Below are positions 57,192 through 61,297 of a stretch of 64,000 bases of DNA, piece after piece. Source of the DNA: Anaerolineaceae bacterium (lineage in GTDB: Bacteria; Chloroflexota; Anaerolineae; Anaerolineales; Anaerolineaceae); assembly GCA_029975475.1 (NCBI GenBank), contig JARKPB010000019.1, positions 62,001-126,000 of the forward strand, in the 5' to 3' direction. The notes under the pieces were generated by a model. The model saw nothing but the letters and a program-made list of their open reading frames with translations. It made no database searches and was not told the DNA's origin. Every line of letters starts with the position of its first letter. Position 1 is the stretch's first letter. A program made the position numbers and the translations under genes.

Positions 57192-58499
57192 TTATTCTGC
57201 ATCGGCCAGCGCGTTTTCCAGATACAGTTTCTCCGACTGGTCGTCGTAAGCGATCAATTCCGCGTAGCGGCCCCAGTCAATTAACACATCCAACTGGGCT
57301 TCAACGTCATCCGGCGGAAATTCCTGCTCCAGCGCGGCCTTCACCAGATCCCAGTCCATTTCGTGTTTGCCGGCGCGCTGCAGCATATCCAGCAGCCAGC
57401 GAACCAGCGGCAGGCGGCGGATGCGCGTGGCGAAAATTTCCTTGCGCGCCAGGATGCTGGCTTCCGCGAACGTCTCGCCCAGCGCGGTCAGGCGGATATC
57501 ACCTTTCTCCACCGTGGCGAAGCCGAGCAGTTCGGCGGTTTCTACCAGGCTCAAGACCATATCCGAATCGATTTTCAGTTCTTCGCTCAGGCGGAAGATG
57601 TCGTCCTGATCGCCGGCTTTTTCGCTCAGATATTCCAGCAAACCGCTCAAATCGGCGATGCTGACCGCCGGCAGCGCCCGCGTGCGCCCGGGTTCGCCCG
57701 GCATCGAGCCCAGTTCAAGCGCTTCTTCCTGGGTTTGCCCGGCCAGCAGCGCGTACACCTGGTCCACCACCGCGCGGAAACCGTCCGTCTGTCGCTGACG
57801 CGGATAGGCCAGATCAATTTTCATGTCCGCGATCACCCGCCCCGGGTCTTTATCCATCACCACCACCCGATCCGCCATCAGCACCGCCTCTTCAATATTA
57901 TGGCTGACCATCAGAATCGCCCGGGTGGGAATGCTGCCGCTGATCCACAGTTCCATCAGCTCGTTGCGCAGCGACTCGGCTGAAAGCACATCCAGGGCTG
58001 AGAAAGGCTCGTCCAGGCAGAGCAGCTCCGGCTCTACCGCCATGGCGCGGGCGAAGCCCACCTTTTGGCGCATACCTCCCGACAGTTCGCGCGGAAACGC
58101 GTTTTCAAAACCGTCCAGCCCGACCCGGTCAATCAGGTCGGTCGCCCTGGCGGTGCGTTCTTCGGCCGGCACACCGCGGGCTTTCAACGCCAGTTCCACG
58201 TTTTCCAGAACGGTCAGCCAGGGGAACAGCGCGAACGTCTGAAAAACGATTGTGGCGTAGGGGTTGACCCCGCGCAGTTCCTCGCCGCGGTACAGCACCC
58301 GGCCTTCAGAGGGCTTCTGCAGCCCGGTCAGGATGCGCAGCAGGGTGCTCTTCCCGCAGCCCGAAGGGCCGAGCAGGGCCACGAATTCCCCTTCCTTCAG
58401 GGTCAGGTTAATATCCTGCAGAGCGGTGAAGCGCCGCGTCCCGCTGGTGTAAATCTGCTGGATGTGCTGTAATTCAAGGAGTTTTCCGTTCTCGTTCAT
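57192..58499 (-). CDS. NitT/TauT-type ABC transporter ATPase with AAA-associated domain
   Basis: A 435-residue ATPase. The N-terminal half has Walker A GPSGCGKST, the Q-loop, signature LSGGMRQ, Walker B LLCLDEPFSALD and the H-loop (MVSHN). The C-terminal ~150 residues match the AAA-associated C-terminal domain (ADLSGLLEYLSEKAGDQDDIFRLSEEL and winged-helix-like segments) that follows some nitrate/sulfonate-type ATPases. It lies 3 bp after the permease gene. No substrate-binding protein is encoded nearby. The transported compound is unknown. Confidence 0.9.
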   Translation of the reverse strand: MNENGKLLELQHIQQIYTSGTRRFTALQDINLTLKEGEFVALLGPSGCGKSTLLRILTGLQKPSEGRVLYRGEELRGVNPYATIVFQTFALFPWLTVLENVELALKARGVPAEERTARATDLIDRVGLDGFENAFPRELSGGMRQKVGFARAMAVEPELLCLDEPFSALDVLSAESLRNELMELWISGSIPTRAILMVSHNIEEAVLMADRVVVMDKDPGRVIADMKIDLAYPRQRQTDGFRAVVDQVYALLAGQTQEEALELGSMPGEPGRTRALPAVSIADLSGLLEYLSEKAGDQDDIFRLSEELKIDSDMVLSLVETAELLGFATVEKGDIRLTALGETFAEASILARKEIFATRIRRLPLVRWLLDMLQRAGKHEMDWDLVKAALEQEFPPDDVEAQLDVLIDWGRYAELIAYDDQSEKLYLENALADAE

Positions 58500-58502
58500 T
58501 TT

Positions 58503-60218
58503 TTACTCCATTCGGAATTTTTCTTCAGCCAGGCGGTAAAGCGGGCGCCAGACCAGGCGGTTGATCAAGACCACCGTCAGGACCATGCTTAACGTGGCGG
58601 CGAGCAAAAAGGCAAAATCGCCGCTCGCGGTTGAGCGGGCGATCAGCGCGCCCACACCGGTGGTGAAAACCGTCTGACCGCCAAACTGGATGTACTCAGC
58701 CACGATGCTGGCGTTCCAGGCGCCGCCGCTGGCGGTGATCGCGCCGGTGATGATATACGGGAACAGCGCCGGCAGAATCAGCGTGCGCCAGCGCGCCCAG
58801 CCGGTCAACTGCATCAGGGTAGAAGTATATTTCAAATCCTGCGGAATGGCTGAAGCCCCGGCGATGATGTTGAACAGCAGGTACCACTGCGTGCCCATCA
58901 ACATCAAAATCACCGCAGCCAGGTTTAACCCGCCCGTCAGGTGCACCAGGTAAAGCACAAAAACCGGGAAGATCGCGGTGGCGGGCACCGACGCGGCCAC
59001 CTGGACCACCGGCTGCAGCACCGCGGCCACTTTGCGGTTGGTGCCGATCGCCACCCCCACCGGGATGGTCCACAGCAGGGCGATCGCCAGTGAGATGCTC
59101 ACCCGCAGCAGGGTCGCTCCCAGCCCGACGGCGATCTCGCCCCACTGTGCCAGCGGCACCCCCGCCAGCATCGACCCCGCGCGCACGCCCCCGTAAATCA
59201 GCCCCAGCCCGAGCAGCCACACCGGCAGGCGGCTGAGCCAGCCGCCGCCTTTGAGCATTTTCTCCTCCGCTTCCATCGGGCGCGAACGCACCTGCCAGGC
59301 ATCCAGCTTTTCGCCCGCCGTCCTCATCAGCCGCCCGAATGTCCTCGCCAGCAGCGAGTTGTGAAAGAGGTCGTAAAACCAGGAGGAAGGCGCGTCGTCG
59401 CTTTCCACCATTTCGACCTTAAAGCGGGTCGACCAGGCAAGCAGCGGCCGCCAGATCAGCTGGTCGAGCGCGATGATGGTCAGAATCAGCGTCAGCAGCC
59501 CCCAGAGGATCGCGCGCGTGTCGCCCTGACTGGCTGCTTCGTGCAGGTAAGCGCCCAGCCCGGGCAGGCGGAAGTCGCGCTCGCCCACGGTGAAAATCTC
59601 CGCCGCCATCAAGAAGAACCAGCCGCCCGCCCACGACATCATGCTGTTCCAGATCAGGCTGATCATGCCGAACGGCAGTTCCAGCTTCTTGAAACGCAGC
59701 CAGGTGTTCAGGCGGAAAATCTTCCCCGCTTCCTGCAGTTCCTTCGGGATGGTGGTCAGCGATTGATACCACCCAAAAGTCATGTTCCAGACCTGGCTGG
59801 TAAAGATCAAAACAATCGAGGCCAGTTCAACCGCCAGCGACTGCGGCAGAACCGCACTCAGGCTGAGCAGCACCACCGGCAGGAAGGAGAGAATCGGCAC
59901 GCTCTGCAGGATATCCAGCAGCGGCATGAGGATGCGCTCGGCGCGCGGGTTGTATGCCGCCGCCCGGCCGTAGAAAATGGTGAACAGCAGCGAGAGCAGG
60001 TAAGCGCTGCCCATGCGCCCCAGGGAGAGCAGCGTGTACCACGGCAGCGCGCGCGGATCGCTGGTAATCACCGGCGCGGAGACCTCCGCCGGGGCGTTGA
60101 ACGCCAGGCGAACACCGCCGTACATCAACACGGTGATGATCAGCAGAACAACCGCGTCACCCCAGGTAAAGCGCTGTTCCAGCCTGGCTTTTGGCAGGTT
60201 GTTTTGAAAGATTCCCAT
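58503..60218 (-). CDS. Double-length ABC transporter permease
   Basis: A 571-residue permease with two fused BPD_transp_1 units, about residues 60-280 and 340-560. Each has the family spans and a cytoplasmic EAA-like loop (ELQEAGKIFRLNTWLRFKKLELP and DLKYTSTLMQLTGWARWRTLILP). A single polypeptide thus supplies both halves of the channel. It is partnered with the ATPase directly downstream. The start codon is ATG 60218 with AAGGAGACAGC before it, and that ribosome site can be masked by an upstream complementary sequence. Confidence 0.9.
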   Translation of the reverse strand: MGIFQNNLPKARLEQRFTWGDAVVLLIITVLMYGGVRLAFNAPAEVSAPVITSDPRALPWYTLLSLGRMGSAYLLSLLFTIFYGRAAAYNPRAERILMPLLDILQSVPILSFLPVVLLSLSAVLPQSLAVELASIVLIFTSQVWNMTFGWYQSLTTIPKELQEAGKIFRLNTWLRFKKLELPFGMISLIWNSMMSWAGGWFFLMAAEIFTVGERDFRLPGLGAYLHEAASQGDTRAILWGLLTLILTIIALDQLIWRPLLAWSTRFKVEMVESDDAPSSWFYDLFHNSLLARTFGRLMRTAGEKLDAWQVRSRPMEAEEKMLKGGGWLSRLPVWLLGLGLIYGGVRAGSMLAGVPLAQWGEIAVGLGATLLRVSISLAIALLWTIPVGVAIGTNRKVAAVLQPVVQVAASVPATAIFPVFVLYLVHLTGGLNLAAVILMLMGTQWYLLFNIIAGASAIPQDLKYTSTLMQLTGWARWRTLILPALFPYIITGAITASGGAWNASIVAEYIQFGGQTVFTTGVGALIARSTASGDFAFLLAATLSMVLTVVLINRLVWRPLYRLAEEKFRME

Positions 60219-60408: not shown

Positions 60409-60435
60409 AAAACCGCCGGTACCCCCGGCGGTTTT
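60409..60435 (-). terminator. Terminator of the peroxiredoxin gene
   Basis: Perfect 11-bp stem (60409-60419 with 60425-60435) and five-base loop just after the peroxiredoxin stop; flanking A/T ends give a T-run on the minus strand. Confidence 0.85.
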
Positions 60436-60439
60436 GCGG

Positions 60440-61201
60440 TTATGCTTTCAATCGGTCTTTCAACACTTCGCGCAGCCGCGCTTCATCAAACTTGATAATA
60501 ATCGTGTCGTCAATATCGAAGGTCGGGGTGGTCTTGACCCCGCCGGTCCACTTCATCACCTGCTCGGCCGCTCCCGGCACGGCGTAGATATCCACTTCGG
60601 TGTACGGCAGCCCGTGTTCCTTCAGCCACAGGCGCGCCCGGCGGCAGTCCGGACACCAGGTGGTGCAGTACAATACAATCCCGCCCTTGGGTAGCGGCGC
60701 CGGCGCGGGTTTTTCCTCTTTGGGTTCGCGCGCCGCCGCGATCGGGTCAATCCGCCGAATTTCTTCCCGCAGCACCTCGTTATCCGGCTGCAGGTCAATA
60801 TCGTGGATGTCAATATACTGAATGATGCCGTAGCGGTCTATCACAAACAGAGCCCGTTCGCTGAACCCCTCCGGCCGCAGCACCCCGTACAAATCTGCCA
60901 CAGCCCCGTGAGGGTAAAAATCGCTCAGCAGCGGATAGCTGATGCCGTTGAAGGAATCAGCCCAGGCTTTCAGCGATGCAGTCGAATCAACCGAGATACC
61001 CAGAACCTGGGTATTTAACCCTTCAAACTTGGCTTTCTCCGCCTCGTATGAAGGGATCTGCGCCGTTCAGACCGGGGTCCAGGCCAGCGGAAAGAAGGCC
61101 AGGACCACGTTTTTGCCGCGAAAGTCGGAAAGGGTTACGTTGCTGCCAAGATGGCTGGGCAGGGTGAAATCCGGAGCCATCATACCGACTTTGAGTTTCA
61201 T
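60440..61201 (-). CDS. Selenocysteine peroxiredoxin fused to glutaredoxin domain
   Basis: Read through one TGA, this is a 253-residue protein from ATG 61201 (AAGGAGGTGCCT upstream). Residues 1-155 are an AhpC/TSA-type peroxiredoxin ([55 protein letters not shown]). The TGA (61069-61067, codon 45) stands exactly at the peroxidatic cysteine, so it is almost surely selenocysteine. After an Ala/Pro/Lys linker, residues ~170-253 form a glutaredoxin-like domain ([10 protein letters not shown]), likely the built-in reductant. The enzyme would reduce peroxides. No obvious SECIS hairpin was identified by eye. A standard annotation would call it truncated at 60901. Confidence 0.88.
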
Positions 61202-61297
61202 AGGCACCTCCTTGAAGACTTTGAACAATTGTAAATCAAAACCCGTCAGATGGGAAAAGGATATGCAAGGTTCGTCAATCCCCCGGGCGGTGCGCGC

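Follow-up and report, generated by a model that had tools for sequence, protein, structure and literature searches.

The window, that is, the whole 64,000-nucleotide stretch of an Anaerolineaceae genome analysed here, carries on its minus strand a gene in which an AhpE-type peroxiredoxin is fused to a glutaredoxin-like domain and in which the codon at the peroxidatic position is TGA (Table 1). Taken as a whole, the explanation that we consider probable is that the gene encodes a selenocysteine (Sec) peroxidase with its reductant fused to it, that SelB docks on the distal one (HP2) of two hairpins following the UGA, and that the proximal one (HP1) serves as a bypass. At the level of sequence, this is based on the reading frame, the conservation of the TGA, the Sec genes of the genome, the selection on the hairpins and a similar hairpin apex in three gene families. 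Sec peroxiredoxins are already known, whereas the fusion and the two-hairpin signal are apparently new. The fusion would add to the selenoenzymes an architecture in which a Sec peroxidase has its likely reductant attached, with Sec predicted in every member found, and which ordinary gene calling truncates.

Table 1. Features of the fusion gene and its surroundings in the window (hairpin positions are counted with the U of the UGA as 0).
Feature	Position	Strand	Basis and remarks
Sec-peroxiredoxin/glutaredoxin fusion gene (predicted)	60440..61201	-	253 codons and TAA; translation, Pfam, TGA in 48/48 fusion loci
In-frame TGA, codon 45, peroxidatic position, predicted Sec	61067..61069	-	translation, alignment of homologues, Sec genes in the genome
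Shine-Dalgarno sequence AAGGAGGT	61206..61213	-	read from the sequence; ATG at 61201, 4 nt further on
AhpE-type peroxiredoxin domain, residues 5-130	60812..61189	-	Pfam; M. tuberculosis AhpE is the best PDB match by sequence and fold
Glutaredoxin-like domain, residues 175-234	60500..60679	-	Pfam; invariant residues in 43 aligned fusions
CPDC redox motif, C183-x-x-C186, in the glutaredoxin domain	60644..60655	-	sequence and fusion alignment
HP1, proximal hairpin, +14 to +50	61019..61055	-	folding; proposed bypass hairpin, or classical SECIS in the rival reading
HP2, distal hairpin AUACCCAG-GUU-CUGGGUAU, +55 to +73	60996..61014	-	proposed SelB-binding hairpin
Terminator-like inverted repeat AAAACCGCCGG..CCGGCGGTTTT, after the stop	60409..60435	-	spotted by eye

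The gene and its UGA codon

Translation of the minus strand bears out what the initial annotation had read at 60440-61201, namely a frame that is intact apart from one TGA, at codon 45, and that begins at 61201 with an ATG and a ribosome site (AAGGAGGT) 4 nt before it. The fused glutaredoxin domain proposed there is likewise recognised by Pfam (Glutaredoxin, residues 175-234, E 3.5e-14), next to AhpC-TSA at residues 5-130 (E 7.3e-39). It was also correct that the first 100 residues are lost to ordinary gene calling, since the sole ORF listed for the gene is one of 153 amino acids with a GTG start (60440-60901). The inverted repeat after the stop codon is not among the sites listed by a consensus terminator scan. 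The assembly around the window has 3.15 Mb in 20 contigs and is 98.9% complete.

We regard it as highly probable that the UGA at codon 45 is decoded as Sec. The Sec machinery that the initial annotation had expected in the genome is all there: SelA (E 2.2e-128), SelB (329.8 bits, cut-off 242.25), SelD (358.8 bits, with an in-frame TGA of its own) and tRNA-Sec (69.5 bits, cut-off 47; ARAGORN anticodon TCA). It is this SelA/SelB/SelC/SelD system that would recode the UGA and insert Sec. In the alignment, Cys stands at the same codon in the homologues, such that the codon is either TGA (79) or Cys (57) in all 136 loci, and among the fusion loci it is TGA in 48 of 48 and Cys in none. The 48 loci correspond to 45 distinct proteins, with L106, L114 and L194 repeating L023, L031 and L039, and one of them, L041, is cut by a contig end. 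Because of this conservation, chance or a sequencing error is very unlikely. At the genome level, SelA (E < 1e-40) is found in 24 of the 25 genomes with the fusion, compared to 25 of the 36 without it (Fisher p 0.019). Together with the RNA structure after the UGA (see below), the Sec genes and the conserved TGA lend support to the view that this is a real selenoprotein.

Two other explanations of the TGA were considered, and we reject both on the conservation and the Sec gene set, giving each a negligible probability. In the standard code TGA means stop, and if the gene were a pseudogene with a nonsense mutation or a wrongly sequenced codon, about 100 residues would be lost; however, the same codon is TGA in all fusion loci, the conservation extends across genera, which argues strongly against this scenario, and both the protein and the RNA structure are conserved. 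Decoding as another amino acid, for example Trp through a changed code or a suppressor, would also leave the frame open, and an open frame under such a code is by itself no evidence for Sec. Here, however, the genome has the complete Sec gene set, all 57 homologues without TGA have Cys at the aligned position, and the downstream hairpins accompany the TGA genes.

One genome, G001, has the fusion and a selD gene with TGA, yet neither SelA nor a tRNA-Sec over the cut-off. Its assembly consists of 770 contigs with 9% contamination, and the gap could be due to the fragmentation, to the contamination or to a decaying Sec system.

Protein, proposed chemistry and distribution of the fusion

The AlphaFold2 model of the window protein has a mean pLDDT of 91.8 and a pTM of 0.80. 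Foldseek ranks 1xxu first (M. tuberculosis AhpE, 1-Cys; 39% identity, rmsd 1.4), and AhpE entries are also on top in the PDB sequence search (7.6e-28), while Mrx1 (2lqo) is among the PDB matches of the glutaredoxin domain (1e-6). Two specific family models score below their cut-offs, namely NCBIfam PrxU (NF040737) with 81.1 bits against 270 and, for the glutaredoxin domain, Mycoredoxin (TIGR02200) with 46.6 against 89.5 bits. The protein has the PxxxTxxU motif, with the UGA aligned to the peroxidatic Cys, and contains no Cys before residue 179. Invariant positions in the alignment of 43 fusions are residue 45 (Sec, represented as C), C179, W182, C183, C186 and T225-P226.

From these features we infer that the gene product is an AhpE-type Sec peroxidase with a fused reductant. 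In the proposed chemistry, Sec45 would attack the peroxide to yield a selenenic acid, and in the window protein it would most likely be the tethered CxxWCxxC glutaredoxin domain that reduces Sec45, since the peroxiredoxin domain has no other Cys. This direct relay may not be the rule for the family, as residue 76 (60976-60974), which is Ser in the window protein, is Cys in 31 of the 43 aligned fusions. Cys76 is found in 0 of 31 unfused Sec genes; the site is located 31 residues past Sec, in a predicted helix, and we consider it a candidate resolving Cys that was gained with or after the fusion. In the fusions that have it, a Sec45-Cys76 bond could form first and then be opened by the glutaredoxin domain.

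The hybrid Prx5-glutaredoxin of Haemophilus influenzae is also a single chain, with a Prx5-type peroxiredoxin that uses Cys; the window protein would differ from it in its predicted Sec and probably in being AhpE-type, AhpE entries ranking first by both sequence and fold. In the Sec peroxiredoxins with a TxxU motif, such as Eubacterium acidaminophilum PrxU, Sec is likewise at the peroxidatic position within P-x-x-x-T-x-x-U, but the window protein is of the AhpE type and fused to a glutaredoxin-like domain. The closest parallel to the proposed reduction is M. tuberculosis AhpE, whose sulfenic acid is, according to the portion of PMC4360819 consulted, reduced directly by mycoredoxin-1, and by analogy the reduction in the window protein would be intramolecular, a relay within a single chain. 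In both systems a peroxiredoxin of the same fold, 1-Cys in M. tuberculosis and probably of that kind in the window protein, would be recycled by a glutaredoxin-like partner; the mycobacterial one, however, uses Cys and two proteins and is mycothiol-linked, while the window protein has a predicted Sec and a single chain. A search by title and abstract among open-licence PMC papers gave no Sec peroxiredoxin-glutaredoxin fusion.

The fusion is present in 25 of 61 genomes (the own genome and 60 relatives), with TGA in each; the contig scan kept the best 80 of 104 relatives. The 21 named fusion loci all carry the name Anaerolineae, Anaerolineales, Anaerolineaceae or Chloroflexi, and among 400 evenly drawn Chloroflexota genomes 4 have the fusion, all 4 with TGA (E 1e-20). 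Among the unfused relatives, some have TGA and others Cys. A quick tree of 132 rows, in which 60 of 128 inner branches are open, needs one change to the fusion (SH-aLRT 94) and 6 Sec/Cys changes, and a single origin of the fusion would thus be required by this tree. L041 was left out of A2 and the trees and kept in A1, while L194 was left out of the fusion-only tree and kept in the 132-row tree and in the peptide counts below.

Some further observations on the loci can be mentioned. The match at L122 has an additional TAA close to its end. In G034 (L127:340-1331), a Cys peroxiredoxin gene overlaps by 4 bases with a separate gene for a glutaredoxin-like protein, which has LWCGA, that is, one Cys of the CxxC. 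We regard the pair as a natural split form of the fusion, although its peroxiredoxin is on a very long branch. For the window and the fusion loci L022-L042 (n = 21, some with short flanks), no generally conserved neighbours were found; the widest neighbour cluster comprises 4 loci and most are common to 2-3. One ABC-ATPase ORF is common to the window and L029. In the window itself, an ABC transporter permease with two BPD_transp_1 stretches (58503-60218) and an ATPase ORF that is considerably extended at its C-terminus (57192-58499) lie downstream on the same strand as the fusion, and a relative of this ATPase ORF is found near the fusion in L029.

Selection on two hairpins after the UGA

The textbook bacterial SECIS is one hairpin. 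The initial annotation had suggested a search for such an element just after 61067, and a stable RNA structure is indeed present there; it consists, however, of two hairpins, which had not been foreseen, and the usual single-hairpin description may not fit it. From the UGA on, the window RNA folds into HP1 and HP2 with −28.5 kcal/mol and a z of −3.38. Rfam gives nothing at the gathering score in the window and nothing up to E 10 over the signal.

Shuffles were made such that the protein and the codon use of the gene are kept. In the 44 fusions, the mean z is −3.03 for HP1 (39 at p ≤ 0.05) and −2.84 for HP2 (35), and in 21 unfused Sec genes it is −2.88 (19) and −2.75 (14), compared to −0.36 (2) and −0.52 (2) in 41 Cys homologues; these means are not independent tests, because the sequences are related, but the pair 57-71 of HP2 has nevertheless switched between AU and GC 7 times on the fusion tree. 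On well-supported branches, 3 of 3 independent pairs go together, which is too few for significance. L106 and L114 were left out of the hairpin sets. Three control stretches have z values of −0.65 to +0.38, the strongest being the upstream stretch of the unfused Sec genes, where 5 of the 21 reach p ≤ 0.05. In a sliding scan, the peaks at HP1 and HP2 stand well above the remainder, where the strongest means are about −1.1 (45-nt windows, unfused Sec genes, near +110). For HP2, a later, separate set gave a z of −3.1 over 10 Sec genes, 9 of them at p ≤ 0.05, and of −0.18 over 16 Cys genes, 1 of them at this level, with HP1 being weaker (−1.87); L088, which has a run of N, was left out of the later Cys counts.

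The pairing of HP2 points in the same direction. Over the 44 fusions 95.7% of the cells are paired, and 20 cells have changed on both sides compared to a shuffled mean of 6.3 (0 of 500 shuffles), although the gain in pair types is not above that of the shuffles (123 of 500; 44 fusions). Two of the 44 fusions, L120 and L122, have a weak HP2 and have kept the TGA.

It could be argued that the hairpins simply follow from the codons used for a conserved peptide, since QVLG/QVVG (residues 65-68) is encoded in 66 of 77 Sec genes, as compared to 5 of 56 Cys genes. We consider this very improbable. Namely, the shuffles preserve both the peptide and the codon use, and among the genes that code for QVLG/QVVG a fold of −6 kcal/mol or lower is found in all 66 Sec genes but in none of the 5 Cys genes. 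The uneven occurrence of the peptide in Sec and Cys genes looks as though its amino acids were dictated by the RNA hairpin. Judged from the sequences, both hairpins are under selection in the Sec members; they are absent from the Cys homologues as groups, and the 5 Cys genes with this peptide have no HP2.

Loop rules, related hairpins and the roles of HP1 and HP2

According to the legend of Fig. 2 in PMC13188914, a bacterial SECIS has a G among its first two loop positions, usually as G[G/U], 16-37 nt after the UGA. As in this model, HP2 is a hairpin following the UGA whose small loop has G[G/U] near its start; 42 of the 44 fusions and all 21 unfused Sec genes show this pattern (63/65), while for HP1 the numbers are 6 of 44 and 0 of 21 (6/65). 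In 43 of the 44 fusions HP2 conforms to the loop rule; it departs from the distance rule, its loop beginning 60 nt past the UGA, behind a second hairpin. The invariance of the GU in this loop proves nothing alone, because GU also starts a Val codon. The HP1 loop departs from the loop rule in 13 of the 44 fusions and is highly variable, with 35 distinct loops in the 44.

The apex of HP2, GGU/GU, resembles that of the hairpin which follows the UGA in fdhA. The fdhA genes of related genomes (n = 8) have one hairpin each, with a GGUCU loop and its base at +14 (3 genes) or +15 (5), and the mean codon-preserving z of these 8 genes peaks at +12/+15. For selD, 27 of the 43 located genes have CAG-GUN-CUG at +33, with the hairpin base at about +29, and among 21 genes (3 of them near-type) G[G/U] occurs in the proximal loop in 9 and in the distal loop in 19. 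Anaerolineae selD genes (e.g. L140 and L145) seem to come in two layouts, with the hairpin either close to the UGA or some 12 nt more distant, behind a small extra hairpin. The near type comprises L138, L139, L140 and L147, in which a GU-apex hairpin lies around +16 to +18; the other 39 are taken as far-type. The mean codon-preserving z peaks at +12 and +27/+30 for the 39 far-type genes and at +18 for the 4 near-type ones. Of the 39 far-type genes, 34 have a proximal hairpin of at least 4 pairs and 38 a far hairpin of at least 5 pairs, and among the 4 near-type genes the numbers are 1 and 2, respectively; for several far-type genes (e.g. L018, L228, L250), the automatic search gave no unbroken hairpin or favoured another one. 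The selD genes thus seem to be split into two layouts, although the division is not perfectly clean.

As a control, E. coli fdhF has GCAGGUCUGC with GGU at +21, and the consulted portion of a review (PMC8659212) gives for it an apical stem-loop 11 nt from the UGA, with constrained sites U17, G23 and U24. The bulged U of E. coli was not seen in the hairpins described here.

Once the intervening hairpin is removed, the distal hairpin would start (median) at +13 in the fusions, +17 in the unfused Sec genes and +15 in selD (n = 21, 3 near-type), and HP2 of the window at +18. In the proposed mechanism, SelB would most likely dock on HP2, and HP1 would fold away some 37-40 nt, which would place HP2, in effect, about as far from the UGA as the fdhA hairpin. 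This bypass role of HP1 appears to us rather likely.

The main rival is that HP1 is the SelB-bound SECIS of the standard model and HP2 an accessory element that improves the recoding of the UGA, for example by slowing the ribosome. HP1 is at the standard place, and in the window gene it has a stable stem and the loop GGAGAAA 26 nt after the UGA, in agreement with the looser published loop rule and with the distance rule. At least one of its first two loop bases is a G in 44 of the 65 Sec genes as compared to 14 of 40 Cys genes (p 0.001), an enrichment that weakens the bypass reading, as does, slightly, the less than clean contrast within selD. The retention of the TGA in the two fusions with a weak HP2 is also in favour of the rival. 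On the other hand, the HP1 loop is as variable as described above and has the commoner G[G/U] pattern in just 6 of 65 genes, the CAG-GUN-CUG apex of HP2 recurs in selD at +33, and four selD genes have a GU-apex hairpin closer to the UGA. In particular, the view of HP1 as the sole SECIS is weakened by the existence of a second hairpin that resembles those of selD and fdhA, and we consider the rival unlikely on balance.

Docking of SelB on HP2 with HP1 as the bypass is thus the reading that we prefer. The more general proposition, that a bacterial SECIS can consist of two parts, a SelB hairpin far from the UGA and a bypass hairpin that folds the distance away, we hold to be only somewhat better than even. 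If true, the distance would have to be counted along the folded RNA, which would explain why some selenoprotein genes are missed by the 16-37 nt rule and would provide a testable rule for atypical bacterial SECIS elements. The layout would then be common to Sec peroxiredoxins of several phyla and to much of Anaerolineae selD. No bacterial SECIS with two hairpins or an additional hairpin was found by title or abstract among open-licence PMC papers, and neither the fusion nor the two-hairpin signal appears in the consulted portions of PMC13188914 (a 2026 review), PMC1088965, PMC1794560 and PMC12013277.

A hairpin model (R1) built on rows chosen to fit was also used to search the own genome, with 150 of 1277 candidates scored. 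It gave 14 matches, with HP2 of the window as the best one, a rank to be read with the fact that an identical HP2 sequence (L036) is in the training set. Two matches have a TGA that passes a mechanical frame test, the fusion gene and L253; the latter was judged spurious as a selenoprotein gene because of its weak context. The selD gene of the genome, whose hairpin is bulged, was not recovered by the model, and the best-scoring formate dehydrogenase gene of the genome has no TGA. A3 left out the peroxiredoxin rows L120, L122 and L092 and the selD rows L018, L141, L143, L228, L236, L248 and L250, as their hairpin is broken or bulged or they fit a different one, used 4 of 8 fdhA genes and merged repeats; since the non-fitting rows were left out, its pair counts lean towards structure.

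Finally, L132-L137 and L222 match the selD family without a TGA, in a frame of about 735-796 codons, and seem to encode SelD fused to another domain. Some of these genomes carry in addition a selD gene of the TGA type.
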